Below are positions 6,001 to 26,901 of a stretch of 34,952 nucleotides of DNA, piece after piece (positions within the stretch are counted from its first letter, which is position 1; the number at the start of each line of letters is the position of its first letter). The position numbers were made by a program, and so were the translations under genes. This DNA comes from Blastomonas sp. (GTDB lineage: Bacteria; Pseudomonadota; Alphaproteobacteria; Sphingomonadales; Sphingomonadaceae). The notes below the pieces were generated by a model. That model saw only the letters and a list, made by a program, of their open reading frames with translations, ran no database searches and had not been told where the DNA came from. The DNA is taken from NCBI RefSeq assembly GCF_030373265.1, contig NZ_JAUCZC010000024.1, positions 1 to 34,952 of the forward strand. The letters are read 5' to 3'.

Positions 6001-6135
6001 GGTTACTTCCTGATTTCGGGTGGTCTGTTTGCAGACATTGGAAGAGGCAGCAGTGCTTTTGTCGGCGGGTCGTACGGTACCGGCGGAGGCAATGACCGAG
6101 CTTCTATCAGTGCCGGTGTTAGGATTGGTTTCTAA
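7..6135 (+). CDS. giant autotransporter adhesin (type Va), possibly 5'-truncated by the window
   Basis: A type V secreted surface protein of about 2042 residues. Residues 15-38 form a signal peptide (RR, hydrophobic stretch, AQA cleavage near 38). The passenger (about 40-1700) is Ser/Thr/Gly/Asn-rich and built from degenerate modules with patterns such as GATVxNxGxIxGxV and GGxASIxI, typical of a right-handed beta-helix, interrupted by polar Ser/Gln-rich stretches. The last 280 or so residues form a 12-strand autotransporter barrel starting after the linker near MALETTAPFADAI, with alternating aromatic strands and the terminal Phe (GVRIGF) recognised by the BAM complex. Mature Cys residues occur only near the N-terminus. 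The start is TTG at 7, but the frame is open to base 1 and only six upstream bases are visible, so the true start may lie outside. No protease triad was recognised; adhesion or biofilm roles are inference. Confidence 0.9.
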   Translation: MNQARASNANSFSRRPTRLVIGVAGIAISTGLSSTAQAACTTTDGVVTCTADNTTDQVNLGVASAGADNATLSILANATVTRGAAPNIQIGQQGVVSVTNAGALGVTALPVGLTYVGTFDEPLNAFSLNNSGEITGGVSLNGVGGATTIENTGAIGGGIGIFGAGTGALTLNIGGTVNSLSATALSASTRGAIDAQISGTIGAPGEAGNPAILRDVALTSRQQDFESETSSTTVEGVTTTLSETTTQWQGSTVDLDLASGASAGATTINGVGSVSANIDGSIGNENDFASLSATSSHQNRDTQNRTVADGTSTVTTSQDNRQTAGGTSTITIGSSGSVAGNVTATGFAGASVTVDGSVGGEDTVAFVFASSGGTASTDDRETTTRSGGTQSSVSLAASRTGGEASIAIGESGSVSGQAFAQGDAGALVENAGAIRGAVTATSGGVIQSVNQSTSSSSFEVAAGEPTRSSSASSSLIEQASYGGEALVENSTTGVMAASASATGRAGATVNNAGEIGGAVNVSSTGTTVRSSSSQANSSVVLSDGTGLLVESNSSNEQANSTTQTGGAARLANAEGGVIGANPLGSVSVNITGTTGAALDNAGRINGNVTLNSRLSNTSFSSESSSSFTQDPDTLVLTSENIYSEQFTSTGVGGAADFVNGPTGLIVGNVSINADGGATVTNQGVVVGTTTVTSQFVNSTSEFASSDSSVVTPGDDGGSVARSTQASSFSNVDGGGDITGTYAGANGTVQFAPGSGARDGSVSQTTAGSSAATVTGAIFGNFTGTAQGSTRTGSNTFSQDSVNDADGDLISLVIEQSGGNETIANSGSSTLTVDGGVITGSAFLSAQGNAAANLVGGADIAGNLSVSTIGNSVSTSTFEFSEILNNDEDGALVDRTVVSGDTSSSTNGTGAASVTIADGIVGGSVSVNSRSGGSTLLVGVDGAVGSFAQVTSSGSDVSREFAATSVTTPDGAGTTTQTDQTLINTSVATGGNVSARIDGVVGNSRNGAIAIDDAPIAGLGGLSLFTSAGDATATLTGQVSGSIDVFASGTASTSQSTSLFVNNVLQTSSSTSASTAVGGTASLTVNSSAENVAARNPANFGGIFVAGVEGSTVTIAANSTVMAARGGASMQVGALFNNSTSSGSTDNTARTQTNSFANVLVGGPATLTVNGTVGNNGGNDFDGASSSVLVTSITRADAVNNGSIFGSLTARSIGTNFGQVTNSTNVGDVTQVNVVDRTYTAVGGTASIDNNRLITGSVAVAAASGALSNDGVIRGGANFGQSVANYTTLATDTATALGEEEVTGTVTPFAQSYTVAQNGLLGGGISVGGAFSPIDDELVSSNIAAAINLNTGSVTVGNIVGEFDQATGERFTRTTVALNGAGYLGLTQADAELLEGRFATFDPRIAQAGDLREYVGTTRVLGADSLTKTGAGTFKIFGAAFAPVGPENAIADYTVDVGEFRVSAGEVQLAVAPVLGERGVFGIRGNVTNSGSLVLGQRVTLEPQLFANNLVSVGGQAIDGVAVYQNGNFAQTGTGTLVVGMAPALVRLTPQSVGTGTSAPDILGFGQVGVSRGFFTTLENVSGGLGSSFVTIDGNLSLQGTVNVVAPRGGIFTGGQTLDLFSVSGTVTENATVNTGLNSAFVTFDLTSRVVAGRTVVSLAAARRGYDTAGLTDNGRAAGAALSASIPSVVTALTADATGTAGFTSVGEFGLTQDLATVISGFDSLLNAAQAGAALEELASGEFYGSLMALETTAPFADAITNRLLPVGAEGFNLWIQPSGDFTRFDGDATTGSRKIKADNFGGSAGFGVATGNGEFGLGFGYGRINVNAPGEPISAKANTYMVGAFARFGFDAFTVAADAVYGWSDWETTRELPTFARTAEAEFDSKEFNANLRAEYRFDFDSVFVAPFAQANLRKYDFDGFAEEGAGAIGLLVEDAGKTVFTPEVGLQAGTSFETGLAVIRPELTLSYAFQGNPDAFRNVSYLGAPGQTFRLQGVDPDGYFLISGGLFADIGRGSSAFVGGSYGTGGGNDRASISAGVRIGF

Positions 6136-6834: not shown

Positions 6835-9303
6835 TCAGAAGCTGGCGGTCAGGATGATGCCGATGCGCCGGGGTGGACGCAGGCCTGCGATGAAGTTGCG
6901 GCGAAGGTCTGCATTGGCGTCGGCATAGCGGATGATCTGCGCGACCGAGTCCTCGTCGAACAGGTTGCGCGCATAGGCCATCACGCGGAAGCGGTCGCTC
7001 TGGAAGCCCAGCCGCGCGTCGACCACCACCGACCCGCCGGTTTCCGCAAAGTTGAGCACCTGGTCGAAGCTGGTCGAGATCATGTTGACGTTGCTGCCGA
7101 CGAAGAAGTCCCAGTCGCTGCTGATCGGCGTGCGGTAATCGACATCGAAGAACATGGTGTGTTCGGGCGCGCGCGGCACCCGCTTGCCGCGGATCGAGCC
7201 GAACAGCGACTGGCAGCCTGCAATGGCCGGGAACTGGTCGCCGGTCGAGCAGTTGACCAGCCGGTCGTCGATGAGGTCGTTGATCAGCCCCAGATTCTCG
7301 TCGGTGCCGGCGGTGAACTTGGCGTCGACATAGCTGTAGTTCGCGGTGACGGTCAAATTGCGCACCGGACGGATCAGCAGTTCAAGCTCGGCCCCGTTGA
7401 CCCGCGCATCGCCGCCATTGCGGGTGAGCGAAACCTGATTGGGCGGCACCGACACGTTCTGGGTGATCTGATAGCCCGTCACCTCGGTGTGATAGAGCGC
7501 CAGATTGGCGGTCAGCTTGCCGTCGAAAAAGGTGTTCTTGGTGCCGATTTCATAGGTCTTGTTGTCTTCCGGCGCGAAGGTCGGGAAGCCGGCCAGGATC
7601 GCCTGGTTGCTGTTGAAGCCGCCGGGCTTCTGGCCTTCGGCATAGACCGCATAGAACAGGTTGTCGCGGGTCGCCTGCCAGCTCAGCGTGAAGCGCGGGG
7701 TGAATTCCTTGAAGGTCGCCTCCACCACGCGGGGCAAGGGGATCGCCTGACCGTTGTTGAAGGTCAGCGTCGACTGGCGGATCTTTTCCTCGGCATAGCG
7801 GCCCTCGGCAGAGATCGACAGGGTGTCGGTGATGTCGAACGTGGCCGATCCGAAAATCGCCTTGTTCTCGATGTCGAACGCATTGACGTTGCGCGATTCG
7901 GGAAGGTTCGCCGCGGTTACCGCGATCGGCGTGAAGATGCCGCAGGTCGGCAATTGCGCGCACAGGGAAGCGGTCGCCGCCGCCGAATTGGCCTGCGCGC
8001 GCGCCAGCGATCCGGGCGGCACCACGCGGGTATCGCGCGACACATCGTTCTGGTCGAAATAATAGCCGCCCAGCATCAGCTGGACCCGCTCGCCCTCATA
8101 GGCCAGCCGCAGTTCCTGCGACCAGTCGTCGGTGACCTGGCGGTTGGAGAAGGTGAAATCCTGCACCGAGGTCGCAAACGCGGTAAAGCGCGTGGTGCGC
8201 GGCGGGGTGATCGGTGCCGGCGCCGGACCCGTCGCGCCATAGGCGAAAATCACCATGTTGAAGCTGTTGCCCGAATAGTCGCCATCGGTCTTGGTGTTGG
8301 CGGTGCGCTTGTTATAGCCGGTCAGGCTGGTCAGCGTCAGCGCGTCGGTGAAGTCGAAATCCATTCGCAGCGCGGCGTTCAGCGTCTTCGATTCGAGGCC
8401 GACATTTTCCGGATCGACGAACTGGCGGCGATAGTCGGTGTTGACCTGTTGCGGCTGGATGGTGCCGCAGAAATAGCGGCTCTGGCCGCGGTACAGCGCG
8501 CCGTTGTCGGGGAAGCAGTTGTTGGCGTTGGCGGGCTGCGCGAAGATCGCCGGCTGGCCGTCGTCAATGACGTTGTAGTTGGCGCGCAACGATGCGCGGA
8601 ACGCCCCGCCATTGTTGAACTGCAGCAGCCCGAAGCCCGAATAGCTCTGCTGCTTGCCGATCCTGGTGCCGTCGAACGCGTTGCGGAAGGCCCCGGCATT
8701 GTCGAGCAGGCGGCCGCCGACCGCGATGCCCAGGCCATCGGCGAGCGGCCCGCGCACATTGGCGGTCACCTCATAGCGGTCATCCTCGGCGATATCGGCC
8801 TGCACCCGCCCGGTCCAGGTGTCGCCTGGCGTCTTCGAGATGAGGTTGATCGCGCCCGAATAGGTGTTGCGACCGTACAGCGCGGATTGCGGGCCTTTGA
8901 CCACCTCGAAACGTTCGACGGTGTCGACGTCATAGTCGGCAAGCGAACCCGAATAATAGATGCCGTCGATGAAGAAGGCGACGCCCGACTGGCCCAGGAT
9001 GTTGGCCTGGCCGCGGATGACCGGACGGTTGGCATCGCGGCCGAAGGTGTCGTCGAACACCAGGCCCGGCACGGTCTTGGCGACATCGGTGAGATTGTCG
9101 AGCCCCAGTCGGTCGATCGCCGCGGCGGTGACCACCGAGACGGTGGTGGGCGCCTCCTGCAGCGTTTCCTCGGTCTTGCGCGCGGTGACGATGATGACAT
9201 CGTCGCTGATGCCGCGGGAAGCGCTCTGGTTTTCCTGCGCCATCGCCGGAACTGCGGTGAGCGCGGACACCGCGAGCAAGGATGCCTTGAACGTACTGGT
9301 CAT
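6835..9303 (-). CDS. TonB-dependent outer-membrane receptor (first)
   Basis: 822 residues. Signal peptide 1-22 (cleavage AMA/Q), then a TonB box (DVIIVTARK, 35-43), a plug domain (about 55-165, with VIRGQ, FFIDGIYY and VEVVKGPQSALYGRNT-like motifs) and a 22-strand barrel ending in the terminal Phe of the C-terminal strand (GIILTASF). It would bind a substrate at the cell surface and import it with energy from TonB-ExbBD. The substrate is unknown: the sphingomonad-type plug and the neighbouring catabolic-looking genes argue for an organic molecule rather than a siderophore. The start is supported by GGGGGA at 9311-9316. The promoter region carries a palindrome shared with the divergent promoter near 10190, which links it to the second receptor operon. 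Confidence 0.92.
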   Translation of the reverse strand: MTSTFKASLLAVSALTAVPAMAQENQSASRGISDDVIIVTARKTEETLQEAPTTVSVVTAAAIDRLGLDNLTDVAKTVPGLVFDDTFGRDANRPVIRGQANILGQSGVAFFIDGIYYSGSLADYDVDTVERFEVVKGPQSALYGRNTYSGAINLISKTPGDTWTGRVQADIAEDDRYEVTANVRGPLADGLGIAVGGRLLDNAGAFRNAFDGTRIGKQQSYSGFGLLQFNNGGAFRASLRANYNVIDDGQPAIFAQPANANNCFPDNGALYRGQSRYFCGTIQPQQVNTDYRRQFVDPENVGLESKTLNAALRMDFDFTDALTLTSLTGYNKRTANTKTDGDYSGNSFNMVIFAYGATGPAPAPITPPRTTRFTAFATSVQDFTFSNRQVTDDWSQELRLAYEGERVQLMLGGYYFDQNDVSRDTRVVPPGSLARAQANSAAATASLCAQLPTCGIFTPIAVTAANLPESRNVNAFDIENKAIFGSATFDITDTLSISAEGRYAEEKIRQSTLTFNNGQAIPLPRVVEATFKEFTPRFTLSWQATRDNLFYAVYAEGQKPGGFNSNQAILAGFPTFAPEDNKTYEIGTKNTFFDGKLTANLALYHTEVTGYQITQNVSVPPNQVSLTRNGGDARVNGAELELLIRPVRNLTVTANYSYVDAKFTAGTDENLGLINDLIDDRLVNCSTGDQFPAIAGCQSLFGSIRGKRVPRAPEHTMFFDVDYRTPISSDWDFFVGSNVNMISTSFDQVLNFAETGGSVVVDARLGFQSDRFRVMAYARNLFDEDSVAQIIRYADANADLRRNFIAGLRPPRRIGIILTASF

Positions 9304-9366: not shown

Positions 9367-9384
9367 AATTTGTCCAGACAAATT
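9367..9384. promoter_or_regulatory. palindromic operator candidate upstream of first receptor
   Basis: AATTTGTC (9367-9374), two-base spacer CA, GACAAATT (9377-9384): a perfect 8-bp inverted repeat, 64 bases upstream of the receptor ATG. It matches the palindrome at 10188-10199 (TTGTCCGGACAA) almost base for base. Short TTGT...ACAA palindromes are known for GntR-family repressors (FadR subfamily), so such a regulator is a plausible but unproven binder; no regulator gene is present in the window. Confidence 0.6.
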
Positions 9385-9454: not shown

Positions 9455-10138
9455 TCAGACGGCGGGCTTCACCACGCCCAGCCATGACGTTACGACGAGC
9501 AGGATATAGATCGCCATCACCCAGATCCGGGTGCGGTCCATCGTGCGGCGCAAGGGCACTTCGGTGGCGTCGCTCGAGCCTTCGGACAGCAGCCGCATCA
9601 GCTGGGGCCCCACCGGCTTGAACGCCAGATCGATGCCGATCGCGGCCACGAAGATCGCACCGAACAGCAGCGCCTTCCACGCCAGCCATCCCGGCGCCAG
9701 CGGCGCGCCGACGAGCAGCGACTGGGCGCCGAGCCACAGGTAGAACGCGGTGAGAGCGTATTTCAGCAGGTTCTCGTAGAACCGGTCGCGCGCGGCGCGC
9801 GGCGTCTGGTCATGACTGTGGGCATCCCACACCAGCCAGAGCCACACCCCGCCGATTGCCCAGCCCGCAACCAGCAGCGCCACCGGCAGGTCCCACCAGC
9901 CGCCCATCTTGAGCACCGAGAGCGACACCGGCACCATCAGCGCCCAGGCGCTGCGCGGGGTCATGTCGACCAGCACCAGCAGCTTGAGCAGCGCCAGCCG
10001 CTGGTCGAGCGAATAATCGTGCCGCTTGCGGAAATGCTGGCCCAGCAGGAACACGCCGACATCCGCCCCCAGCCACAGCACAAACAGCAACAGATGGACG
10101 TAGACCAACGAGGGATACGCAATTTCCGACCAGCCCAA
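9455..10138 (-). CDS. six-helix inner-membrane protein of unknown function
   Basis: 227 residues from a TTG start at 10138, chosen because GGGAG lies seven bases upstream (10146-10150). The upstream in-frame ATG at 10180 has no Shine-Dalgarno site, would add a Cys-rich leader, and would place the palindrome at 10188 directly against the start. Six hydrophobic segments are visible: LVYVHLLLFVLWLGADVGVF, the RSAWALMVPVSLSVL stretch, LPVALLVAGWAIGGVWLWLV, LLKYALTAFYLWLG, WKALLFGAIFVAAIGIDLAF and IWVMAIYILLVVTSWLGVV. The first helix has a conserved-looking His (VYVHLLL) and the layout resembles CopD-like or DUF2269-like membrane proteins, but I do not assign a family. It lies just upstream of the first receptor and is divergent from the second, sharing the palindromic promoter region, so a role in the same uptake or metabolism is likely. 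Confidence 0.78.
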   Translation of the reverse strand: MGWSEIAYPSLVYVHLLLFVLWLGADVGVFLLGQHFRKRHDYSLDQRLALLKLLVLVDMTPRSAWALMVPVSLSVLKMGGWWDLPVALLVAGWAIGGVWLWLVWDAHSHDQTPRAARDRFYENLLKYALTAFYLWLGAQSLLVGAPLAPGWLAWKALLFGAIFVAAIGIDLAFKPVGPQLMRLLSEGSSDATEVPLRRTMDRTRIWVMAIYILLVVTSWLGVVKPAV

Positions 10139-10187
10139 AGTGCATCTCCCGCAGCATCGTTCCACAAAGCCAATTGACATTGCAGAT

Positions 10188-10199
10188 TTGTCCGGACAA
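10188..10199. promoter_or_regulatory. palindromic operator candidate in the divergent promoter
   Basis: TTGTCCGGACAA is a perfect 12-bp palindrome in the 123-base gap between the divergent membrane-protein gene (start 10138) and second receptor gene (start 10262). It is about 50 and 62 bases from the two start codons. It repeats the core of the element at 9367-9384, so one regulator probably controls all three transcripts. Confidence 0.62.
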
Positions 10200-10261
10200 T
10201 TTGCAAGAAAAAAATGAATGTCAGGCGGATCGATACCAACCGGCTTTCAGGGAGTTTCACG

Positions 10262-12784
10262 ATGATAAACTTACGTTTGGCGACGGCCGCCTCGGCGCTT
10301 GCAGTCGCACTTGCTACCCCGGCTTTCGCCCAGAATGCCGATCAGGCAGGGGCCGCCGACTCAGAAAATCAGGGCCTCAGCGAGATCATCGTCACCGCCC
10401 AGCGGCGCCAGGAAAGCGTTCAGGACGTGCCGATCGCGATCAGCGCGTTCACCGCCGACCAGTTGCGCGACCAGGGCGTGTCGAACACGCTGCAACTGGG
10501 CCAGTACGTTCCCAACCTCGTCGCGCAGAACAACACCGGCATCGGCTCGGCCAACGCGTACTTCCTGCGCGGGCTGGGGTCGACCGAGACGATCGCGACC
10601 TTCGACCCGCCGGTCGGCACCTATGTCGATGACATCTATCTGTCGCGCCAGAATGCCAACAACCTTTCGCTGTTCGACGTTGCGCGCGTCGAGGTGCTGC
10701 GCGGACCGCAGGGCACGCTGTTCGGCCGCAACACCACCGGCGGCGCGATCAACGTCATCATGGCCGAGCCCGGCGACACGATCGGCGGCTATGCCGAGGT
10801 CGGCTATGGCCGGTTCGACAAGAAGCTGGTGCGCGGCTCGATCGACCTGCCGCTCGCCGACAGCTTTGCGATCAAGGTCTCGGGCTACTGGCAGGATGAC
10901 GACGGCTATGTGAAGAACGTCACCACCGGCGAGCGGCTGAACGACGATGACGGCTGGGGCGTTCGGCTCGGCCTGCGCGGTGAGCTTGCGCCCTGGGCGC
11001 GCTGGCGGGCAAGCTATGCGCATGTCGTCTCCGAAGGCGAGAACATCCTCAACTTCACCTGCAATCCAGCCAATCCCACCGATTGCAGCGGCCGCTTTTC
11101 GACCACGGGGCTGAGCGCCAATCCGGCCTCGGCCACGCCCTATGCACCGCTGGCAATTTCGGGGCGCAAGGCGGGTTATGGCCTGGGGCAGGAGGCGGTG
11201 ACCGATATCATCACCTCGAACCTCGCGTTCGACATCGCCGACAACACCACGCTCAGCCTGATCACCGGCTATGTCAGCCTGACCCAGCAGTTCGCGCTCG
11301 ACTTCTTCGACGGCCGCGGCGGGCCTTCGGCAAGCGTGCCGTTCCCGGCGGTGCAGGGCTATGCGCGCGGCGGCTTTACCATCCTCAACGATGGCCAGCA
11401 CGAGCAGTTCACCCAGGAAATCAAGCTCGACGGCAGCTTCGGCAATGGCCTGGTCGATTATGTCGCGGGCTTCTTCTACATCGACGAGCGCAACCGCACC
11501 GATCTGGCGGACGTGTTCTCGATCTCGCCGGCGGTCTCGCTGCTGCTCGCGGACCGCATCATCCGCAACACCACCAAGGCCTATGCGGGCTATGTCCAGG
11601 CCGATCTCAACATCACCGACCAGATCAAGCTGACCGCGGGCGTGCGCTATACCGACGAGACCAAGAACTTCTCGATCACCGACAACCGCGCCTCGTGCAA
11701 CGATGGCACGGTCGAGGCCAACTGCATGGCCAATGTCAATCTGCGCGCTGCCAATGGCGTGCCGATCCCGCGCAGCCAGAACGTCAAGATCTGGACCCCG
11801 CGCTTTGCGCTCAACTTCAAGCCCAATGACGACATCCTGCTGTTTGCCTCGGCCACCAGGGGCTTCAAGTCCGGCGGCTGGAACGCGCGCGCCACCGCGC
11901 CCAGCCAGTTCCTGCCGTTCGACGAGGAGCGGGTGTGGAGCTATGAGGCCGGCTTCAAGTCGGAATTCTTCGACAACAAGGTGCGGGCCAACGTCACCGC
12001 GTTCTGGATGGATGTGAGCGATCTCCAGATCCTCGCCGGGCTGCTCAACCCGGCCACCGGTGCGATCACCTTCCTCACCCGCAACTTTGCCGATTATCGC
12101 AACAAGGGCATCGAGGCGGAACTGACGATCGCCCCGGTCACCGGTCTCAACCTCTATGCCAATGTCGGCTATCAGGACGACAAGTATCGCGTCCCCGATG
12201 CGCCCGCGGGCAACGATATCTACGGCATCCAGAACGTGCGGGCGCAGCTTGCCGCCTGCCAGGCGCAACTGGCGGCAGGGCAGATCCCGGCCAGCTCCAA
12301 CTCTGCACCGGCGGGGACCCCGGTCAACAACGCGCCGGCCTGCGCGGCGGGGATCGTGACCGCCGATGGTTCGATCGCAAGCCCGGTGCGCACGCCGGAC
12401 TGGTCGCTGGCGCTGGGTGGCAGCTATCGCGCGCCGCTGGGGGACAGCGGGCTGTCGCTCGTCCCGTCGATCAACGCCAGCTACCGTTCGCGGCAGGAGG
12501 TCGCGATCGCCAACCTGTCGATCTACAATGCGCCGGTGACGCGCGGCGGTCGGACCACGCCGGCCAATCCGTTCGGCGATGGCGCATTCATCACCGGATC
12601 GGAAAGCCCGGCGGCCTGGCTGGTCAATGCAGGGCTGGCGCTCAACGGCCCCGACAATGCCTGGCAGCTCGCGGTGGAGTGCACCAACTGCTTCAACGAG
12701 GAGTTCATCCAGTCGTCGCTGTCCAACTACAGCTATCTCAACCAGCCGATGATGTGGACGGTGCGTGCGCGCTACAATTTCTGA
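10262..12784 (+). CDS. TonB-dependent outer-membrane receptor (second), operon head
   Basis: 840 residues from ATG at 10262, chosen over an in-frame ATG at 10214 because AGGGAG lies at 10249-10254 and because the signal peptide then begins properly (hydrophobic LATAASALAVALA, cleavage AFA/Q at 23/24). TonB box SEIIVTAQRR, plug with YLRGLG, DDIYLSR and VEVLRGPQGTLFGRNTTGG-type motifs, then a large barrel ending WTVRARYNF. This is the sphingomonad class of receptor usually tied to import of organic substrates rather than iron; the substrate is unknown. One long extracellular-type segment (about residues 655-700) holds paired Cys. It is followed after 119 bases by the transporter and enzyme genes in the same direction. 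Confidence 0.92.
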   Translation: MINLRLATAASALAVALATPAFAQNADQAGAADSENQGLSEIIVTAQRRQESVQDVPIAISAFTADQLRDQGVSNTLQLGQYVPNLVAQNNTGIGSANAYFLRGLGSTETIATFDPPVGTYVDDIYLSRQNANNLSLFDVARVEVLRGPQGTLFGRNTTGGAINVIMAEPGDTIGGYAEVGYGRFDKKLVRGSIDLPLADSFAIKVSGYWQDDDGYVKNVTTGERLNDDDGWGVRLGLRGELAPWARWRASYAHVVSEGENILNFTCNPANPTDCSGRFSTTGLSANPASATPYAPLAISGRKAGYGLGQEAVTDIITSNLAFDIADNTTLSLITGYVSLTQQFALDFFDGRGGPSASVPFPAVQGYARGGFTILNDGQHEQFTQEIKLDGSFGNGLVDYVAGFFYIDERNRTDLADVFSISPAVSLLLADRIIRNTTKAYAGYVQADLNITDQIKLTAGVRYTDETKNFSITDNRASCNDGTVEANCMANVNLRAANGVPIPRSQNVKIWTPRFALNFKPNDDILLFASATRGFKSGGWNARATAPSQFLPFDEERVWSYEAGFKSEFFDNKVRANVTAFWMDVSDLQILAGLLNPATGAITFLTRNFADYRNKGIEAELTIAPVTGLNLYANVGYQDDKYRVPDAPAGNDIYGIQNVRAQLAACQAQLAAGQIPASSNSAPAGTPVNNAPACAAGIVTADGSIASPVRTPDWSLALGGSYRAPLGDSGLSLVPSINASYRSRQEVAIANLSIYNAPVTRGGRTTPANPFGDGAFITGSESPAAWLVNAGLALNGPDNAWQLAVECTNCFNEEFIQSSLSNYSYLNQPMMWTVRARYNF

Positions 12785-12816
12785 TCGCGCAAAAATGCCG
12801 TCTGGCGGATGGAGCG

Positions 12817-12834
12817 TCGCACAACTCTGTGCGA
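12817..12834. promoter_or_regulatory. inverted repeat between second receptor and MFS gene
   Basis: TCGCACA (12817-12823), loop ACTC, TGTGCGA (12828-12834): a perfect 7-bp inverted repeat 33 bases after the receptor stop and 70 bases before the MFS start. No T tract follows, so it is more likely an operator, an mRNA-processing or stability hairpin, or part of an internal promoter than a terminator. Confidence 0.4.
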
Positions 12835-12903
12835 TGCTTCTCCCCGTTCTAGGCTGCCCAATCATGACAGCCATACCGGCACACGACAATCGGGAGCGAG
12901 GCG

Positions 12904-14211
12904 TTGGCGACTAAGGCAGACGAGCTTTTGCAGACGGCGCCGCCTGCCCAGCGCGGAGAATTTTCGCTGGGCTGGAAGGTGCTCATTGCCGGCGTCATCG
13001 GGGTCGCCTGCGGGGCATCACCGATCCCGTTCAACGTCATCGGCTTTACCATCGCCCCGCTGACCCAGGAGTTCGGCTGGACCACCACCCAGATCCTCAC
13101 GCCGATCACCATTTTCGGCGTGGTGGCAGCCTTGCTGGCGCCGGTGTTCGGCTGGATGGCCGATACTTACGGCGTCCGGCGGATCGCCTTGTGGTCGCTG
13201 TTCGGCTTTGGCGTCACCTTTGCCGCGCTGGCGCTGACGCCGCCGGTCTTGTGGGCCTATTATCTGCTGTGGCTGATGGTCGGGCTGGTCGGGATCGGAT
13301 CGACACCGGTAACCTGGAGCCGCGCGATCAACATGTGGTTCTACAAGAGCCGCGGGCTGGCGCTGGGGCTGCTGCTGCTGGGCACCAGCCTGGCGGCGCT
13401 CACCGTCCCCAAGCTCGCGGTCTGGGCGATCGAGGCGTACGGCTGGCGGGCGATGTATGCGATCGTCGGCATGCTGCCGCTGCTGATCGCCCTGCCGATA
13501 TGCATCTGGCTGTTTCGCGAGCCCCGTCCCGAAGAACAGCCGCAGGGAATCAAGACCGCCAGCGGCGGGCTGACCGGCGTGACGCTGAACGAGGCGCTGC
13601 GCGATTACCGTTTCTGGCTGATCTGGGCATCGATCCTGTTCATCGCGCTGACCTTCGGCGGCGCGTTCATCAACATGCCCGCGATGCTCGCCGACCGGGG
13701 CATCCCGGCGCAGGGCGCCGCTTCGGTGATGGGGATATTGGGCCTGGGCATCCTGACCGGTCGGATCATCACCGGGCTGCTGCTCGACCGCTTCTGGGCG
13801 GGCTTCGTCGCCTTTCCGCTGCTGTGCCTGCCCGCTTTGTCGAGCTGGATCCTGCTCGATCCGTCACCCGGTTTTGCGCTGGCGGCGCTGGCGGGGTTTC
13901 TGCTGGGCTTTGCGGCGGGCGCCGAGAGCGACCTGATCGCGTACCTTACCGGCCGCTATTTCGGCATGGCGCATTACGGCAAGATCTACGGCATGCTGTA
14001 TATGCCCTTCGGCGTGTTCTCGGCGATCTCGCCGATCATCTATTCCTCGGTCCGTGATTCGACCGGCAGCTACGACCAGATCCTGTTCATCGCGATCTTC
14101 GGATACATCATCGGTGGCGCCTTGCTGCTGCTGCTGGGACGTTATCCGGTGCTGACCGAGGCCCCGGCGGGCGGTGCCAAGCCCGCCGCCCCGGCGATGG
14201 AGACGGCGTGA
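12904..14211 (+). CDS. MFS transporter
   Basis: 435 residues, twelve predicted membrane helices, inner membrane. The loop between helices 2 and 3 carries the major-facilitator signature (GWMADTYGVRRIAL, about 83-96, i.e. GxxxDxxGxRR). The overall pattern resembles organic-acid/monocarboxylate-type MFS members. The start is TTG at 12904, supported by GGGAG at 12892-12896 with a 7-base spacer and no better in-frame ATG. Its stop overlaps the next gene by one base (TGATG), so they are co-translated. By context it moves the receptor's ligand, or a product of it, across the inner membrane; the substrate and direction cannot be read from the sequence. Confidence 0.88.
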   Translation: MATKADELLQTAPPAQRGEFSLGWKVLIAGVIGVACGASPIPFNVIGFTIAPLTQEFGWTTTQILTPITIFGVVAALLAPVFGWMADTYGVRRIALWSLFGFGVTFAALALTPPVLWAYYLLWLMVGLVGIGSTPVTWSRAINMWFYKSRGLALGLLLLGTSLAALTVPKLAVWAIEAYGWRAMYAIVGMLPLLIALPICIWLFREPRPEEQPQGIKTASGGLTGVTLNEALRDYRFWLIWASILFIALTFGGAFINMPAMLADRGIPAQGAASVMGILGLGILTGRIITGLLLDRFWAGFVAFPLLCLPALSSWILLDPSPGFALAALAGFLLGFAAGAESDLIAYLTGRYFGMAHYGKIYGMLYMPFGVFSAISPIIYSSVRDSTGSYDQILFIAIFGYIIGGALLLLLGRYPVLTEAPAGGAKPAAPAMETA

Positions 14212-15773
14212 TGGCGACCCTGGTGAAAGATGATGCTGGCGCGCTCGATGCGCTGATCGCGGCGGCAGGCGCAGACGCGGTGCTGACCGACGCAGCGACG
14301 CGCGATTTCTTCGCGCACGACGTCTATGCCACTGGCACCCCGCCGCTCGCAGTGCTGCGCCCTTCGAGCGTCGATCAGCTGGCGCGCGGTGTCGCGGCGG
14401 CGACCGGCCAGGGTCTTGCCATCGTCCCGCGCGGCGGCGGCATGAGCTATACCGGCGGGTATCTCTATTCGAATGGCGGCTTCGTGCTGGTCGATACGGG
14501 CGCGCTCGATGCCATACTCGACATCGATGCCACCGACATGACCGTGACGGTCGAGGCGGGGTGCACCTGGGCCAAGCTGCACGAGGCGCTGAAACCGCTG
14601 GGCCTGCGCTGCCCGAGCTGGGGCACCTTGTCGGGGCTGCGCGCATCGGTCGGCGGCGGGATGAGCCAGAACGGCACCTTCTGGGGCGCCAGGGCCGGGT
14701 CGGTGGTCGACAGCGCGCTCTCGTTCGACGTCGTGCTTGCCGATGGCCGCATCGTCAGCACCGGCAGCGATTTCTTCCGCCCGTTCGGCCCGGACCTGAC
14801 CGGTATGTTCGCCGCCGATACCGGCGCGTTCGGGGTCAAGGCGCGGGTGACGCTGCGGCTGGTGAGGGAGGCAAGCGCGTTCGCCTATGGCTCGTTCTCG
14901 CTGCCCGATCACATAGGATTGCTTGGCGCGATGAGCGCGATCGCGCGCGAGGGGCTGGCCTCGGAGAATTTCGCGTTCGATCCGTTCCTGCAATCGCAGA
15001 GAATGAAGCGCGACAGCCTCGCCAAGGATGCCAAGTCGCTGCTGAACATGATGAAGTCGCAGGGCTCGGCGTGGAAGGCGCTCAAGGAAGGCGCCAAGGT
15101 GGTCACCGCCGGACGCTCGTTCCTGAAAGACGTGCCGTTCTCGCTGCACACCATCGCCGAAGGGCGCCACCAGGGTGCGGTCGATGCCGAGATGGCCGAG
15201 ATCGGACGCATCGTCGCCGCGCATGGCGGCAGCGCCATCGAGAATTCGATCCCCAAGATCCTGCGCTCCAACCCGTTCCCGCCGCCCAATTCGATGCTCG
15301 GCCCCGATGGCGAACGCTGGGTGCCGGTGCACGGCTTCCTGCCGCACTCCCGGCTGGTCGAGGCCTGGGAGCGGATCGAGGCACTGTATGCCGACAATGC
15401 CGATGCGATGACGCGGCTCGAGGTCAATGCGGGCGCGATGCTGGCCGCGGTCAGCCGCTCGGCCTGCCTGATCGAGCCGGTGTTTTTCTGGCCCGACGTG
15501 ATGAACCCGCTGCACCGCGCTGCGGTCGAGCCCGATCACCTCCGGAAGCTCAAGGGCTTCCCCGAAGGCCTTGAGGCGCGCGCCTTGGTCGGCGAATTGC
15601 GCGCCGGCGTCATCGCGATCTTCCGCTCGCTCGAGGCGGCGCACCTGCAGATCGCGCGCACCTATCCGCTCAAGGCATCGCATGATCCTGCCGCATGGGA
15701 TATCCTGACCGCGCTCAAGCGGGCGGTCGACCCGAAGGGTGTCATGAATCCAGGGAGCCTGGGACTGGAATGA
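14211..15773 (+). CDS. FAD-linked oxidase (VAO/PCMH family)
   Basis: 520 residues. The N-terminal PCMH-type FAD-binding domain covers about 40-220, with the flavin pyrophosphate loop PRGGGMSYTGG (73-83), a SVGGGMSQNG segment (146-155) and TGAFGV (204-209). The C-terminal domain ends in the typical LKRAVDPKGVMNPGSLGL motif of the GlcD/D-lactate dehydrogenase-like oxidases. The position where covalent flavoproteins carry His in GGGH is Met here (GGGM), so FAD is probably bound non-covalently. Likely an alpha-hydroxy acid or alcohol dehydrogenase or oxidase; the substrate is unknown. ATG at 14211 overlaps the MFS stop by one base; GTG at 14208 is the alternative. No signal peptide is seen, so it is probably cytosolic. 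Confidence 0.88.
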   Translation: MATLVKDDAGALDALIAAAGADAVLTDAATRDFFAHDVYATGTPPLAVLRPSSVDQLARGVAAATGQGLAIVPRGGGMSYTGGYLYSNGGFVLVDTGALDAILDIDATDMTVTVEAGCTWAKLHEALKPLGLRCPSWGTLSGLRASVGGGMSQNGTFWGARAGSVVDSALSFDVVLADGRIVSTGSDFFRPFGPDLTGMFAADTGAFGVKARVTLRLVREASAFAYGSFSLPDHIGLLGAMSAIAREGLASENFAFDPFLQSQRMKRDSLAKDAKSLLNMMKSQGSAWKALKEGAKVVTAGRSFLKDVPFSLHTIAEGRHQGAVDAEMAEIGRIVAAHGGSAIENSIPKILRSNPFPPPNSMLGPDGERWVPVHGFLPHSRLVEAWERIEALYADNADAMTRLEVNAGAMLAAVSRSACLIEPVFFWPDVMNPLHRAAVEPDHLRKLKGFPEGLEARALVGELRAGVIAIFRSLEAAHLQIARTYPLKASHDPAAWDILTALKRAVDPKGVMNPGSLGLE

Positions 15774-15779
15774 AAGCCG

Positions 15780-16919
15780 ATGGAACTCGAACGCCGCATG
15801 GTTCTGGCCGCGATGATCGCAGGCGCTTTGCCGATCGATCACGCGCTGGCGCAAGGAGCACCCGGCATGGCTCCTGACGCACCCTATGCCGCCGTCGCGA
15901 TGCAGCTGGCGGCGCGTTCGGTCGAGCGCGCGCCCGATCGCGCCGCCGCCCGCGCGCAGGTGCTCGCCATGATCGGCGAGGTCGAAACCAAGATCCGCTC
16001 GGCGCGCATCTTCATCGAGCAATATGGCGGGCATCCGGTCAGGCTCGCGGTGCTGCCCGAATATCTGTTCACCAGCTACCCCGGGCGCATCTCGATCCCC
16101 GATTTCGCGTCGCTCGCTGCGTTCGAGATGCAAGGGCCAGAGTATGACGCGCTGGGCAAGGTCGCGCAGACTCTGAAGCTGTTCCTCGCGGGCAATGCCT
16201 ATGAGGTCGACCCCAATTTTCCCGGCCTGTATTTCCAGGCGAGCTTCCTGATCGCGCCTTCGGGCGATGTCGTGCTGCGCTATCGGCGGTTGAACTCGAT
16301 GTTCGCGCCGACCCCGCACGATGTGTGGAGCAAGTACCTTGATGTCTATGGCCTGGACGGCGTGTTTCCGGTGGCGCGCACCGAGATCGGCAATCTGGCC
16401 GCGATCGCCTCGGAGGAAATCCTCTATCCCGAGATCGCGCGCGCGCATGCGCTGCGCGGGGCGGAGATCTTCCTGCATTCGTCCAGCGAGATCGGATCGC
16501 CGATCGATACCAACAAGGCGATCGCCAAGCGCGCGCGCGCGTTCGAGAACATGGCCTATGTCGTCTCGGCCAACACTGCGGGGATCGAGGGCACCGGCCT
16601 GCCGCTCGCCAGCGCCGACGGCAACAGCCAGATCGTCGACTGGAAGGGCCGGGTGGTCGCCGAATCGAACAGCGGCGAGACCTTCACCGCCTTTGCGGAC
16701 ATCGACCTGCATGCCCTGCGCACCGCGCGGCGCACGCCCGGAATGACCAACTATCTCGCGCGTCAGCGGCTGGAGCTGTTCGCAGCGGCTTATGGGACTG
16801 TCCGGCATCCGGCGGACGGCATGCTCGAGGATGGCGCGGTCAAGGTGCCCGACCGCGACTATTTCAAGCGCGTGCAGGAGCAGGTGATCGAGCGCATGGC
16901 GAAGGACGGACTGATATGA
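15780..16919 (+). CDS. exported nitrilase-fold protein with altered catalytic triad
   Basis: 379 residues of the carbon-nitrogen hydrolase superfamily. The N-terminus has a signal peptide with a twin-arginine-like start (ERRMVLAAM, cleavage ALAQ near 25), so it is likely periplasmic, which is unusual for this family. Family landmarks: catalytic Glu in LPEYLF (E94), the YRK-equivalent segment RYRRLN (R169-R170) where the catalytic Lys is normally found, and the nucleophile elbow GNLAAIASEEILYPEIAR (204-221). In aliphatic amidases the matching segment has Cys at the position held here by Ser (S211). Thus Glu is kept while Lys appears replaced by Arg and Cys by Ser. It may be a pseudoenzyme, a binding protein, or use altered chemistry. 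It starts 6 bases after the oxidase gene and overlaps the methyltransferase gene by 4 bases. Confidence 0.82.
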   Translation: MELERRMVLAAMIAGALPIDHALAQGAPGMAPDAPYAAVAMQLAARSVERAPDRAAARAQVLAMIGEVETKIRSARIFIEQYGGHPVRLAVLPEYLFTSYPGRISIPDFASLAAFEMQGPEYDALGKVAQTLKLFLAGNAYEVDPNFPGLYFQASFLIAPSGDVVLRYRRLNSMFAPTPHDVWSKYLDVYGLDGVFPVARTEIGNLAAIASEEILYPEIARAHALRGAEIFLHSSSEIGSPIDTNKAIAKRARAFENMAYVVSANTAGIEGTGLPLASADGNSQIVDWKGRVVAESNSGETFTAFADIDLHALRTARRTPGMTNYLARQRLELFAAAYGTVRHPADGMLEDGAVKVPDRDYFKRVQEQVIERMAKDGLI

Positions 16920-18127
16920 CCCACCAATTCGATGTCGCACCGCCGTACACCGCCGTGGCGCTGCACGGCGTGTCGCCGCAACCCAGCCATGACGAAGCGG
17001 CGCGGTTCGATTTCCTCGCCAACCTCAACAAGTATCTGTCCGGCACCTTGGGTCCGGGCAACAAGCAGGCCTATGACACCCGCGTGCTCCCTGGCTTTGT
17101 CGCCGAGCATGGCTGCGAGCCCAGGGACCGGTTCGAGATCCGCCACGCGATGAACCGCGATCCGCACCACCGCTTCTGGTCGGCGCTCAAGCGCAACAGC
17201 ATGGAGATGCGCCAGCAGAACGGCCGCGCGATGGTGCTGCGCCAGATCGATGAGTTGAACGCCAAGGCCCGGCAATACAATGAAGGGCGCGACACGCTCG
17301 AGCTCGACCCGTCGGTCGCCGTGCCCCGCTACCAGAGCGCGATCGACATCCATTGCATGCCCGGCAGCTATCATGGCGAGGAAGCCCCCGGCGACGTCTC
17401 CGCCGGCGCTAATTACGACTGCGGCATCTTCGCGACCACCGCAGGCGGCCTGGGTGCGCTGTCGGATGGCGGTGGCCAGGCTCTGGTCAAATGGGCGCGC
17501 ACCGAACGCCCCGGCTGGCAGCCGCAGCGCATTCTCGATATCGGCTGCACCGTGGGGCATAACATCGTGCCGCTGGCGCTCGCCTTTCCCGATTGCGAGG
17601 TGATCGCGATCGATACCGCAGCGCCGTCGCTGCGCTACGCGCATGCCCGCGCGCAGTCGCTGGGCGCGACCAACATCCGCTTCGTCCAGGCCAATGCCGA
17701 GGATCTGTCGCGCTGGTCGGACGCAAGCTTCGACTGGGTGCAGACCACGATGTTCCTGCACGAGACCAGCGGCACCGCGCTGCCACGCATCATCCGCGAG
17801 GGCTATCGCGTGCTCAAACCCGGCGGGCTGATGCTGCATCTGGAACAGCCGCAATATTCCGACGCGATGCCGCTCTACGAGCAGTTCATCCGCGACTGGG
17901 ACGCATTCAACAACAACGAGCCGTTCTGGTCGGCGATGCATGCGCTCGATCTCAAGACGATCCTGAAGGCATCGGGCTTTGCCGAAAGCGACCTGTTCGT
18001 CACCGGGGTGCGCGCGGTGGTCGATACCGAGATCTTCCCCTCGGCCGGCGACGAGAAGGAAGAGGATCACGGCCGCGCCGCGGTCTGGCACGCTTATGGC
18101 GCCTGGAAGGGCGGACGGCCGGAATAG
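16916..18127 (+). CDS. class I SAM-dependent methyltransferase with long N-terminal extension
   Basis: 403 residues. The Rossmann methyltransferase core occupies about 200-345: motif I ILDIGCTVGHN (206-216), the acidic ribose-binding residue in VIAIDTA (D233), FVQANAEDL (257-264), FDWVQTTMFLHE (272-283) and VLKPGGLMLHLEQP (299-312). The first 190 or so residues are not part of that fold and are not recognised; they are rich in Asn/Arg/His and could form the substrate pocket or a second domain. ATG at 16916 overlaps the preceding stop by four bases (ATGA), a sign of translational coupling. The methylated substrate is unknown; a small molecule is likely given the oxidase and transporter upstream. 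Confidence 0.85.
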   Translation: MTHQFDVAPPYTAVALHGVSPQPSHDEAARFDFLANLNKYLSGTLGPGNKQAYDTRVLPGFVAEHGCEPRDRFEIRHAMNRDPHHRFWSALKRNSMEMRQQNGRAMVLRQIDELNAKARQYNEGRDTLELDPSVAVPRYQSAIDIHCMPGSYHGEEAPGDVSAGANYDCGIFATTAGGLGALSDGGGQALVKWARTERPGWQPQRILDIGCTVGHNIVPLALAFPDCEVIAIDTAAPSLRYAHARAQSLGATNIRFVQANAEDLSRWSDASFDWVQTTMFLHETSGTALPRIIREGYRVLKPGGLMLHLEQPQYSDAMPLYEQFIRDWDAFNNNEPFWSAMHALDLKTILKASGFAESDLFVTGVRAVVDTEIFPSAGDEKEEDHGRAAVWHAYGAWKGGRPE

Positions 18128-18134
18128 AGCAAGT

Positions 18135-18238
18135 CGGTCCCCCGCAAAGGCGGGGCCCATCTCCTGCCGGTGCCACGGATGCACCGGTGCATCGATACGC
18201 AAGCTCAGGAGATGGGCCCCTGCCTGCGCACGGGACCG
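18135..18238. repeat. large palindromic REP-like element inside the operon
   Basis: A 104-base imperfect inverted repeat fills nearly the whole gap between two operon genes. Outer arms CGGTCCC/GGGACCG (18135-18141, 18232-18238), then an imperfect part, then a perfect 15-bp arm GGGGCCCATCTCCTG (18152-18166) with CAGGAGATGGGCCCC (18206-18220). The loop region holds a perfect 14-bp palindrome ATGCACCGGTGCAT (18179-18192) and a second possible hairpin CCGGTGC/GCACCGG. It resembles intergenic palindromes dispersed in sphingomonad genomes; copy number cannot be judged here. Confidence 0.75.
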
Positions 18239-18257
18239 GAACCAACGGAGAAGAAAT

Positions 18258-18617
18258 TTGACCGAACCCGTCGACTGGATGATCCGCGCCAATGCGCGCG
18301 CCAAGGGCAAGCGCCCCGATTTCCTCGGCGATCCCGACAAGGAACGCCTGCTTTCGATGCTGATGGCGGTGATCGGCGAGGTGTCGGTGATGCGCGAGCG
18401 GATGGACACGATCGAGCGGCTGCTCGAGACCAGGGGCACGATCAGCCGGGCGGATATCGAGGGTTACAGGCCCGACCGCGAGGCGGGTTACGAGCGCGCC
18501 GCGATGATCCGCGAGTACATCGCCCGCATCATGCGCGGGCCGCAGCAGATGATGGAGGCGATGCAGTCCGACGACAAGCCTGTCGAAGAGCTGAGCCAAG
18601 ACCTGAAGGACCTGTGA
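18258..18617 (+). CDS. small helical protein of unknown function
   Basis: 119 residues from TTG at 18258, supported by GGAG at 18247-18250 with a 7-base spacer. The open frame runs much further upstream, but that part lies inside the methyltransferase gene and the palindromic element, so it is rejected. Residues 27-60 (DPDKERLLSMLMAVIGEVSVMRERMDTIERLLE pattern) form an amphipathic helix with heptad-like spacing, probably an oligomerisation coil; residues 70-104 form further helices. No signal peptide or membrane segment. It overlaps the next gene by one base (TGATG). Possibly a subunit or scaffold for one of the operon's enzymes; no family is recognised. Confidence 0.75.
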   Translation: MTEPVDWMIRANARAKGKRPDFLGDPDKERLLSMLMAVIGEVSVMRERMDTIERLLETRGTISRADIEGYRPDREAGYERAAMIREYIARIMRGPQQMMEAMQSDDKPVEELSQDLKDL

Positions 18618-19342
18618 TGCAGCACCGTACCGTCAGCGGCAAGATCCGCTATACCTCCAAGAAGCCGCACATCCTGGACCAGGAGCGCGGGCGCGAATGG
18701 TTCAGCTTCACGCACCATGGCGATGGCCGCACGATCATGCGCGCGCGCTGCGAGATCGAGGAGCCCGAGCCCAAGGTGCTGCGCGACATCGTCTACGGCA
18801 TCGGGCCAAACATGGTGCCCGAGCATCTGCACGTGCACCTGACCGTGGGCGATGCCTTCATGGGCTCGGGCTGGATGCGGCACGATGCGGCGGCCGGGGT
18901 GATCGAGTGCGAGAGCTTCGGGCCCTCGATCGGCCGGGTGTCGCAGCGGGTTGCGACAGGCGGCGCGTTCGACGGCTTCGGCACGCACCCGATCGCGGGC
19001 GACGGCTTCATGACGCGGGTGATCGACGTGAGCAAGGGCCCGCACCGCCGCAATGTCCGCTGCTTCCTGCCGTCAGCCGACCATCGCGGCGCCACCCCGC
19101 CGCTGATCGCAGAGGTGCTCATCGGGCTCGAATATGTCGGCGAGGAGGAAAAGACCGTCGAAGCGGGCACCTTCGCCTGCCGGCATTACCGCTACATCGA
19201 CGATACCGGGCCGGGGATGGGCGGCAATACCCATCCGACCTATGACATGTGGGTCACCGCCGATGATGATTCCGTCTTTGTGTATGGCAGCATCGATGGC
19301 GGCATGATGGCGCGGTACGAGCTGGTCGAACTGGAGCGCTGA
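18617..19342 (+). CDS. 241-residue beta-rich protein of unknown function, possible barrel
   Basis: ATG at 18617 overlaps the preceding stop by one base. The protein has no signal peptide or membrane helix and is rich in beta-type patterns. A His cluster EHLHVHLTVGDAF (69-81), plus H33-H34 and H89, could bind a metal or line a pocket. The C-terminal half (about 163-240), with a VEAGTFACRHYRY segment followed by YDMWVTADD and a final strand MARYELVELE, recalls DUF3108-like proteins, in which such segments form a beta-barrel half. This resemblance is from memory and not decisive. By position it is the last gene of the operon; an isomerase, cyclase or binding role on the operon's metabolite is possible but not shown. 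Confidence 0.75.
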   Translation: MQHRTVSGKIRYTSKKPHILDQERGREWFSFTHHGDGRTIMRARCEIEEPEPKVLRDIVYGIGPNMVPEHLHVHLTVGDAFMGSGWMRHDAAAGVIECESFGPSIGRVSQRVATGGAFDGFGTHPIAGDGFMTRVIDVSKGPHRRNVRCFLPSADHRGATPPLIAEVLIGLEYVGEEEKTVEAGTFACRHYRYIDDTGPGMGGNTHPTYDMWVTADDDSVFVYGSIDGGMMARYELVELER

Positions 19343-19384: not shown

Positions 19385-21379
19385 TCAGGGTATCCTGCGG
19401 CTCTGGCGGAAATGCGCATAGCGTTTCAGCAGATCGTCGATGAGCTGGTCTTGCGTAAATCCGGTCACGTCCCGCGGCTGGTTGCCGTCCGAACTGTGCG
19501 CCATTGCGCGAAAATGGCGCTGCCTGGGGTCCGTTTTCGATGATTGCGGGCGTTCCAGCCAGACAAAGCTTGGCGTAAGGAAACTGCGCGAGCGCACCGT
19601 GTAGCGGAAGGCACCGCTGTCGCCGTGCGGGATTGTCAGTTCGAGCCGGTCGGTCTCCTGCACGACGTCCGGCGCGAAGCCGCTGTTTCGCATCTGGCAC
19701 GCCACCGCTTCGAGAGCTGGCTTGGCAGTCGCGTTGATGAAGCCAGCAATCTCGTCGGCGCTGAAATGCTGGGTCAGCGAGGCCAGCCGCTGCTGCCAGT
19801 TCAGCTCGGGATCGGGGCCGGCGGCTATTGTGCCAGAAAGATCAATGGCCGACCCGGTGGTTTCTGTCTGCAGCGCGCGCAACAGGCCGAAGCAAATGAA
19901 GATCATGATCACCGCAAACGGCAGCGCGCTGGCAATGGCTGCGGTCTGCAGCGCCTGCAGTCCGCCTGCAAGCAGCAGCACGCCAGCGATCGTGCCAGCG
20001 CTCACCGCCCAGAATATCCGCTGCCACACCGGCGGATTCTCGGCGCCGCCTGTGGTGATCATGTCCATGACCAGCGCTCCGGAATCCGCCGATGTCACAA
20101 AAAAGGTGATCACCAGCAGGGTCGCGATGAAGGACGTGATCGTGCCGAACGGAAGCGCCGCCAGAGTCTCGAACAGCGCTACGGGAAGATTGGCAAGCGC
20201 GGTCTCGGCAATCGGCGCGACACCGGCCATGTCCAGCGCGATCGCGGTGTTGCCGAACACCGTCATCCACAGGAAGCTGAACAGCACCGGCACCAGCAAC
20301 ACCCCGCTGATGAACTCGCGGATGGTCCGCCCCCGCGAAATCCTGGCGATGAACATGCCCACGAAAGGCGACCAGGCGATCCACCATCCCCAATAGAACA
20401 GCGTCCAGTCGCCAAGCCAGGGGTTGGGCTCATAGGCATAGAGGCGGAAGGTTCGCTGGACGAGCGAGTCGAGATAGGCACCGATGTTCTGCAGATAGGC
20501 ATCGAGCAGGAGTACCGTGGGCCCCGCGACCAGAACGAAGCCGAGCAGCCCGACAGCCAGCACGATGTTCAGTTCCGACAGGCGCTTGACCCCCTTGTCG
20601 AGACCCAGAAACACCGAAAGCGTCGCGCACGCAGTGATGGCAGCGATCAGCAGCAACTGGTTGTTGGCCGAGACGGGAACGTCGAACAGATAGTCGAGGC
20701 CCGCGTTGACCTGAAGAACGCCCAGACCGAGCGATGTCGCCACGCCGAACATTGTGCCGATGACCGCGAAGATATCGACGGCATGACCGATCGGTCCGTA
20801 GATGCGCTTCCCGATCAGCGGATAGAGCGGCGAGCGCAGAGCCAGCGGCAACCCCCTGCGGAACGAGAAATACGCCAGCGCCAGGCCGACAACGATGTAG
20901 ATCGCCCAGGCGTGGACGCCCCAGTGCAGGAATGTCAGAACCATGGCCTGTCGCGCCGCGTCCACCGTCCCGCCTTCGCCGGTGGGGGGAGCGGCGTAAT
21001 GCTGGATGGGTTCGGCCACGCCGAAAAACACCAGACCGATGCCCATCCCGGCGCTGAACAGCATCGCGAACCAGGAGACATAGCTGTATTCCGGTTCGCT
21101 CTCGTCCGGCCCGAGCCGGACATCGCCATGCCGGCTGAACAGGAGATAAATGACGAAGAACAGGAAGCCCGCGACCGCAGCAACGTAGAACCATCCGAAA
21201 TCCGCCACGATCACGGCCTGCACGCGCGCAAACAGGCGCGCCGCAGGGTCGGCAAATGCCGCGCCCAGGATGGCGAACAGCAAGATGAGCCCGGCGGAGG
21301 TGAAAAATACCGGCGGATTGACCTGAATTCGCGCGCTCTTGGCCCTTGGCAAGGCTTCCTTCACGACGGGATCGGGCAA
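19385..21379 (-). CDS. BCCT-family transporter (betaine/choline/carnitine type)
   Basis: 664 residues, twelve membrane helices, inner membrane. Family landmarks: the glycine-rich GMGIG stretch (111-115) identical to that of the Na+-coupled betaine carrier BetP, followed by LVFFGVAEPIQH, and the Trp-rich signature DWTLFYWGWWIAWSPFVG (about 324-341) that lines the quaternary-amine site, then ISRGRTIREF. The C-terminal 150 residues (about 515-664) are soluble and extended, as in long BetT-type carriers where the tail senses osmotic state. Start is TTG at 21379 with AGGAAG at 21385-21390; the nearby ATG is out of frame. Predicted role: uptake of glycine betaine, choline or a related compatible solute. 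It faces the plus-strand operon tail to tail, 42 bases apart, without an obvious terminator. Confidence 0.92.
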   Translation of the reverse strand: MPDPVVKEALPRAKSARIQVNPPVFFTSAGLILLFAILGAAFADPAARLFARVQAVIVADFGWFYVAAVAGFLFFVIYLLFSRHGDVRLGPDESEPEYSYVSWFAMLFSAGMGIGLVFFGVAEPIQHYAAPPTGEGGTVDAARQAMVLTFLHWGVHAWAIYIVVGLALAYFSFRRGLPLALRSPLYPLIGKRIYGPIGHAVDIFAVIGTMFGVATSLGLGVLQVNAGLDYLFDVPVSANNQLLLIAAITACATLSVFLGLDKGVKRLSELNIVLAVGLLGFVLVAGPTVLLLDAYLQNIGAYLDSLVQRTFRLYAYEPNPWLGDWTLFYWGWWIAWSPFVGMFIARISRGRTIREFISGVLLVPVLFSFLWMTVFGNTAIALDMAGVAPIAETALANLPVALFETLAALPFGTITSFIATLLVITFFVTSADSGALVMDMITTGGAENPPVWQRIFWAVSAGTIAGVLLLAGGLQALQTAAIASALPFAVIMIFICFGLLRALQTETTGSAIDLSGTIAAGPDPELNWQQRLASLTQHFSADEIAGFINATAKPALEAVACQMRNSGFAPDVVQETDRLELTIPHGDSGAFRYTVRSRSFLTPSFVWLERPQSSKTDPRQRHFRAMAHSSDGNQPRDVTGFTQDQLIDDLLKRYAHFRQSRRIP

Positions 21380-26306: not shown

Positions 26307-26307
26307 A

Positions 26308-26889: not shown

Positions 26890-26901
26890 TGCCTACCTTC
26901 C

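Follow-up and report, generated by a model that had tools for sequence, protein, structure and literature searches.

A conserved putative uptake operon of Blastomonas sp. shares an operator with putative catabolic genes and has a likely GntR-type regulator

The window, the whole stretch of 34,952 nucleotides analysed here (contig NZ_JAUCZC010000024.1 of Blastomonas sp.), has a run of seven plus-strand genes (10262-19342) accompanied by a minus-strand membrane protein gene and a second receptor gene, all of them present as an earlier note on this DNA had listed them. The genes and features are as follows.

6835-9303, minus strand: second TonB-dependent receptor (PF00593/PF07715), divergent, with an operator upstream; its orthologue in the relative G203 adjoins two operator copies
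9370-9381: operator copy TTGTCCAGACAA, one base off a palindrome, 66 bases before the start of the second receptor
9455-10180, minus strand: membrane protein without a Pfam family; the gene may in fact start later, in frame at 10138
10188-10199: operator TTGTCCGGACAA, a perfect palindrome lying between the membrane protein and receptor genes
10262-12784, plus strand: TonB-dependent receptor; longest open reading frame from 10214
12904-14211, plus strand: MFS transporter (MFS_1, by Pfam)
14211-15773, plus strand: FAD-linked oxidase/dehydrogenase (FAD_binding_4), GlcD/D-lactate-dehydrogenase-like; a GTG start at 14208 is also possible
15780-16919, plus strand: nitrilase-fold protein (CN_hydrolase, by Pfam), with Glu94, Arg170 and Ser211 at the catalytic positions
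16916-18127, plus strand: protein with the class I SAM methyltransferase fold and an additional helical part at the N-terminus (Pfam and fold matches)
18128-18257: dispersed palindromic repeat between the methyltransferase and small-protein genes, from genome matches
18258-18617, plus strand: small helical protein with a TTG start, partner of the methyltransferase by pairing across loci
18617-19342, plus strand: beta-barrel protein, predicted fold like DUF1849 (6ntr)

The start of the first receptor was placed near 10262 rather than at 10214, because the sequence there appears to encode a signal-like segment. Pfam searches agreed with the families named earlier (TonB receptor, MFS_1, FAD_binding_4, CN_hydrolase and class I methyltransferase), and the small, beta-rich and membrane proteins had no match above cut-off, in line with the claim that at least three of the proteins lack a known family. 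The short overlaps on which the operon had been postulated are there: the MFS and FAD oxidase genes are joined via TGATG at 14209-14213, the nitrilase-fold and methyltransferase genes share 4 bases (16916-16919), and the small and beta protein genes share 1 base (18617). The description of the run as tightly packed holds for these junctions, but not for the gaps of 119 bases between receptor and MFS genes and of 130 bases between methyltransferase and small-protein genes. The repeat in the latter gap has 78 partly overlapping matches on both strands of the genome, and in the close relative G203 about 21 bases lie where the window has the repeat. A crude hydropathy scan found about six hydrophobic stretches, some overlapping, in the membrane protein, as expected of the six-helix protein proposed earlier. 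Scans for promoters and terminators stayed at chance level. Directly after the operon, on the opposite strand, lies a gene for a BCCT-family transporter (19385-21379).

Instead of the Glu-Lys-Cys triad of nitrilases, the nitrilase-fold protein keeps only Glu94 and has Arg170 at the Lys position and Ser211 at the Cys position. This residue register is backed by profile alignment to solved CN hydrolases, and the Arg and Ser were found in 42 of the 42 distinct orthologue sequences that cover all the positions (among 45 distinct matches, one partial sequence has the Ser and two cover none of the positions). A plain nitrilase or amidase role of the window protein was rejected, since two of the three usual catalytic residues are replaced. 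Judged from these residues the protein looks catalytically altered, and the swap of both the catalytic Cys and the catalytic Lys is a conserved trait of this nitrilase-fold family. The periplasmic location assigned earlier is compatible with a possible signal sequence in the window protein, but it is doubtful for the family, because in 37 of 46 genomes the best match starts at query residue 15 or beyond (in the other 9 it starts at residue 10 or before), although such a start does not prove a signal absent.

The methyltransferase belongs by fold to the class I SAM methyltransferases, judged from PF13649, a DIGCTVG motif and fold matches to many SAM methyltransferases; its N-terminal helical region is added to a normal SAM-fold domain, and an IHCMPG motif is conserved in most of 15 aligned members. 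The methyltransferase is also found paired with the small protein in other settings. Among 80 named loci, the best 80 of 581 confirmed stretches with the methyltransferase family, 75 have the methyltransferase gene followed by the small-protein gene on the same strand within about 400 bases. A family related to the window's membrane protein sits after this pair in other loci, and one member of it scored 25.1 bits against DUF2269, under the cut-off of 28; a profile search by sequence found no solved relatives of the membrane protein. The model of the beta protein (pLDDT 85.7) has a DUF1849-like barrel (6ntr, E 9.4e-7), and the fold search returned DUF1849-like and LolA/YmcC-like barrels, with no function from it.

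The operator gives the operon its context. The pattern TTGTCCRGACAA was found at only four places in the genome of the window, at 10188 and 9370 of the window, at 8265 of contig C25 and at 2224 of contig C26, and the backwards control pattern had 0 places genome-wide. When one mismatch was allowed in the palindrome, 11 places were found genome-wide compared with 7 for the control, and therefore only exact operator copies are informative. All four places sit upstream of genes of the regulon set; these genes of contigs C25 and C26 belong to one shared-operator set with the window operon. In the 80 named loci, 110 of 110 operator sites lie outside the genes matched by the query set. A GntR orthologue is present in 23 of 296 Sphingomonadales genomes, and at least three exact operators occur in 21 of these 23 compared with 4 of the 273 others. 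This co-occurrence makes it likely that the GntR/HutC protein, which scores under the cut-offs of named GntR equivalogs, is the regulator that recognizes the operator. As a separate observation, genome G105 has 36 exact copies of TTGTCCGGACAA compared with 0-9 in each of the other 295 genomes, a number for which the regulon model gives no explanation.

Contig C25 has two divergent gene runs around its operator. One run encodes an isochorismatase-fold amidase, two PuuE-like proteins, an aldehyde dehydrogenase, a protein without Pfam match and a DUF1330 protein. The other encodes an alpha/beta hydrolase, a DUF3598-like protein (no solved relatives were found for it by sequence), LeuC, LeuD, and HMG-CoA-lyase-like, CoA-transferase-like and glyoxalase-superfamily proteins. 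On contig C26 a DUF1838 protein gene is divergent from genes for RipC-like, RipB-like and acyl-CoA-dehydrogenase-like proteins and two family III CoA-transferases, followed further on by the GntR regulator, two MmgE/PrpD proteins, an amidase, an SDR protein, and PuuE-like and racemase-like proteins. In the relative G203, whose genome is a single contig, 37 counterparts lie within about 49 kb (2,837-2,887 kb), with four genes that look unrelated in between. This cluster has six operators, five exact and one variant, of which five sit between or before matched genes and the sixth (2,886,895) between two proteins without an assigned name. The gene content, the conserved order, the shared operator and the statistical linkage of operator and regulator come directly from these comparisons, and the system is a real, conserved catabolic one whose genes are probably co-regulated.

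The same operator bears on whether this is an iron or siderophore uptake locus. Two TonB receptors are present, and the best curated model for both is of siderophore type, with scores under its cut-off. However, none of the neighbours scanned was recognisable as a siderophore gene, and iron or siderophore uptake was set aside as very improbable, since the receptors have their operator in common with catabolic genes.

The gene order was sought in other genomes, and it is kept in several sphingomonad genera and in one gammaproteobacterium. Gene names in the relatives' loci are best matches to the query set rather than curated annotation, and the names PaaK (no Pfam match), ECH, EthD-like and cytochrome b561-c were given by eye. 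The order MFS, FAD oxidase, nitrilase-fold protein, methyltransferase, small protein is intact in 19 of the 80 named loci (best 80 of 581), and another 9 of these 80 have it without a recognised FAD gene between the MFS and nitrilase-fold genes. Within the stretch examined, the operator is also present in 18 of the 19 intact loci, and three or more genes of the imide/LeuCD block in 16. Among these 19 are loci of three Blastomonas, a Sphingorhabdus MAG, Glacieibacterium frigidum and a gammaproteobacterium, Peristeroidobacter agariperforans; in the last of these (L152) the operon is accompanied by both flanking blocks, with the order unchanged. Transfer from lineage to lineage is the likely explanation of the operon outside Sphingomonadales. 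In three other Blastomonas records (L086-L088) the imide block sits directly after the operon, in place of the window's BCCT transporter gene.

The arrangement varies elsewhere. Hosts of the methyltransferase family include, among the matches listed, Blastomonas, Parasphingorhabdus, Sphingorhabdus, Glacieibacterium, Sandarakinorhabdus, Erythrobacter and Novosphingobium; the orthologues have 55-95% identity, and there are more distant paralogues too. In the Erythrobacter-type clusters examined, the MFS, FAD oxidase, nitrilase-fold and beta protein genes form one run and the methyltransferase/small-protein pair is in another, with operators at each, and in some relatives the pair lies in clusters without the imide block within the stretch examined. 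At E < 1e-60, the nitrilase-fold gene is present in 46 and the amidase marker in 48 of 296 Sphingomonadales genomes. The two occur together in 38 genomes (Fisher p ~1e-30, with phylogeny ignored); at this threshold the amidase is missing from 8 of the 46 and the nitrilase-fold gene from 10 of the 48.

We propose that the seven-gene run serves uptake and the first steps in a catabolic regulon under GntR control, a reading that, together with the scheme set out below, we give about an even chance (roughly 0.5). An uptake-and-conversion locus without a match to a described pathway had been suggested, and this agrees with the conserved neighbourhood and with our finding no described operon in the literature searched. 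The idea that the run is a full import-and-modify set did not hold up: the genes that would explain the chemistry sit on other contigs (next door in relatives) behind the same operator. The enzyme families suggest that the regulon digests nitrogen-containing ring compounds, possibly chlorophyll or bile-type pigment fragments. The receptor and the MFS transporter would import a nitrogen-containing compound, the FAD enzyme would oxidise it, possibly handing electrons to the membrane protein, and the methyltransferase/small-protein pair would work on the same substrate. Ring opening of a cyclic imide or lactam may then fall to the PuuE-like enzymes, and removal of the second nitrogen to the isochorismatase-fold amidase. 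The resulting substituted maleate would be hydrated by the LeuCD-type enzyme, activated by the CoA-transferase-like protein and split at a C-C bond by the HMG-CoA-lyase-like enzyme. A parallel branch for the saturated, succinate-type analogue could use the CoA-transferases, the acyl-CoA-dehydrogenase-like protein and the RipB/RipC relatives.

The LeuC/LeuD-type proteins scored above the hydro-lyase cut-offs (645.8 compared with 531 for NF009116, and 235.1 compared with 167 for the small-subunit model NF002458), and under that of the leuC equivalog TIGR00170 (517.7 compared with 560.25). The LeuC of C25 is an additional copy, and a role of this LeuCD as a leucine-biosynthesis copy is unlikely, since two other LeuC-like genes, at 49% identity, are present in the genome. 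The HMG-CoA-lyase-like protein, which has a second gene copy elsewhere in the genome, falls by score in the HMG-CoA lyase subfamily (281.4 compared with a cut-off of 246 for NF004283). The C25 CoA-transferase and the acyl-CoA dehydrogenase are under the curated cut-offs of their best models.

The hydrolases could also be read as hydantoin or ureide degradation, with a hydantoinase or allantoinase role for the PuuE-like proteins, the isochorismatase-fold protein serving as carbamoylase and the racemase-like one as hydantoin racemase. The PuuE-like proteins (two on C25, one on C26 and one in a paralogous cluster on contig C7) are kin to the PuuE family, but all four are under the 424.6-bit cut-off of the PuuE allantoinase model TIGR03212, with 106.1 and 108.0 bits for the C25 pair, 138.1 bits, and 248 bits (C26). 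This explanation is unlikely; in its favour, the closest solved relative of the amidase (104 bits) acts on N-carbamoylsarcosine, being N-carbamoylsarcosine amidohydrolase; the C26 set also has a weak match to a racemase model (20.1 of 190 bits). It leaves the LeuCD, HMG-CoA-lyase-like and CoA-transferase proteins and the RipB/RipC relatives behind the same operator unexplained.

If the PuuE-like and isochorismatase-fold proteins did other hydrolyses, the substrate could be a nitrogen-free branched acid or an aromatic compound derived from lignin or terpenoids. The host group is known to degrade aromatics, hydratases, lyases and CoA-transferases are present, and the best curated models of the MFS transporter are carboxylate types (L-lactate and oxalate/formate), with scores far under their cut-offs. 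We consider such a substrate quite unlikely: three amide-hydrolase families (PuuE-like, isochorismatase and amidase) occur in one supercluster, and the proteins scanned, which include two glyoxalase-superfamily members, showed no recognisable dedicated ring-cleavage dioxygenase.

For the proposed catabolism of nitrogen-containing rings, several known systems offer partial likenesses. The lower nicotinate pathway uses the deformylase NicD, the maleamate amidohydrolase NicF and the maleate isomerase NicE. Like it, the regulon has an isochorismatase-fold amidase that matches 3ot4/3uao (81 bits), which we take to be NicF, an alpha/beta hydrolase beside the amidase, and a PF17645 protein in the C7 cluster. 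Unlike it, the regulon adds a LeuCD-type hydratase and PuuE-like enzymes, and no pyridine-ring enzyme was recognised among the regulon proteins scanned. Anaerobic nicotinate fermentation has a dimethylmaleate hydratase and a dimethylmalate lyase; the LeuCD-type hydratase is alike, as is a PrpB-like lyase on C7 (243.9 of 354.4 bits), whereas the main cluster has CoA-transferase-like and HMG-CoA-lyase-like proteins instead of such a lyase. The RipABC itaconate degradation (mesaconyl-CoA) pathway is matched by adjacent RipB-like and RipC-like proteins with family III CoA-transferases, but these proteins are under the curated cut-offs (241.9 compared with 340 for NF038241, and 210.8 compared with 375 for NF038242), and the regulon includes an acyl-CoA-dehydrogenase-like protein. 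The same genome has two further methyltransferase/small-protein clusters (L055, L056, L075 and L076, on contigs C5 and C7). The one on C7 encodes an FAD oxidase, a PuuE-like protein, a methyltransferase/small-protein pair, LeuCD, the PrpB-like lyase, the PF17645 protein, a flavin monooxygenase and, named by eye, a cytochrome b561-c-like fusion, and we infer that it may repeat the imide/maleate logic of the main set.

Natural substituted maleimides have tetrapyrroles as their chief source, which makes chlorophyll, haem and bilin fragments candidate substrates. The regulon could be a pathway by which bacteria aerobically mineralise the products of tetrapyrrole breakdown, a bold, tentative and, on its own, unlikely proposal from enzyme families. 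Two imidases would open substituted maleimides or succinimides such as hematinic acid or methyl-ethyl and methyl-vinyl maleimide, the amidase would free the second nitrogen, and LeuCD would hydrate the substituted maleate (in the case of hematinic acid, a homoaconitate analogue with a methyl group). Transfer of CoA and a retro-Claisen cleavage might then yield ordinary metabolites, for example propionyl-CoA and 2-oxoglutarate, or glutaryl-CoA and pyruvate, and rings in reduced form would go through the succinate branch. The genes examined included none recognisable as coding for a macrocycle-opening enzyme. Photosynthetic reaction-centre genes (PF00124) are present in the window's genome and in 18 of 48 genomes with the amidase marker compared with 34 of 248 without it (p ~2e-4), a link given little weight because the statistic ignores phylogeny. 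In its passages on leaf chlorophyll degradation products, PMC7318184 lists hematinic acid, reports that maleimides were not detected there, and cites older reports of maleimides and hematinic acid from senescent leaves and from lake sediments.

Among the matches listed, the open-licence PubMed Central literature on imide and tetrapyrrole catabolism, DUF1838, the operator and the gene combination gave no description of this system. As far as our searches go, the system is new within that literature and made of known enzyme families. The amidase marker is in 48 of the 296 sampled Sphingomonadales genomes, yet no description was found in the literature searched, and the defined 37-gene set with its likely regulator is a basis on which substrates can be screened concretely. 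Should the tetrapyrrole reading be true, the last steps of bacterial breakdown of chlorophyll would become open to genetics; a passage of PMC7318184 describes this pigment as made and degraded at the 10^12 kg scale per year. Elsewhere in the window, an open reading frame of about 2000 amino acids (145-6135, plus strand) has coding-like codon use and no Pfam match, and a minus-strand group at 24810-29076, with a PepSY_TM protein, an unannotated 193-aa open reading frame and a TonB receptor, looks like an iron-uptake group separate from the operon.
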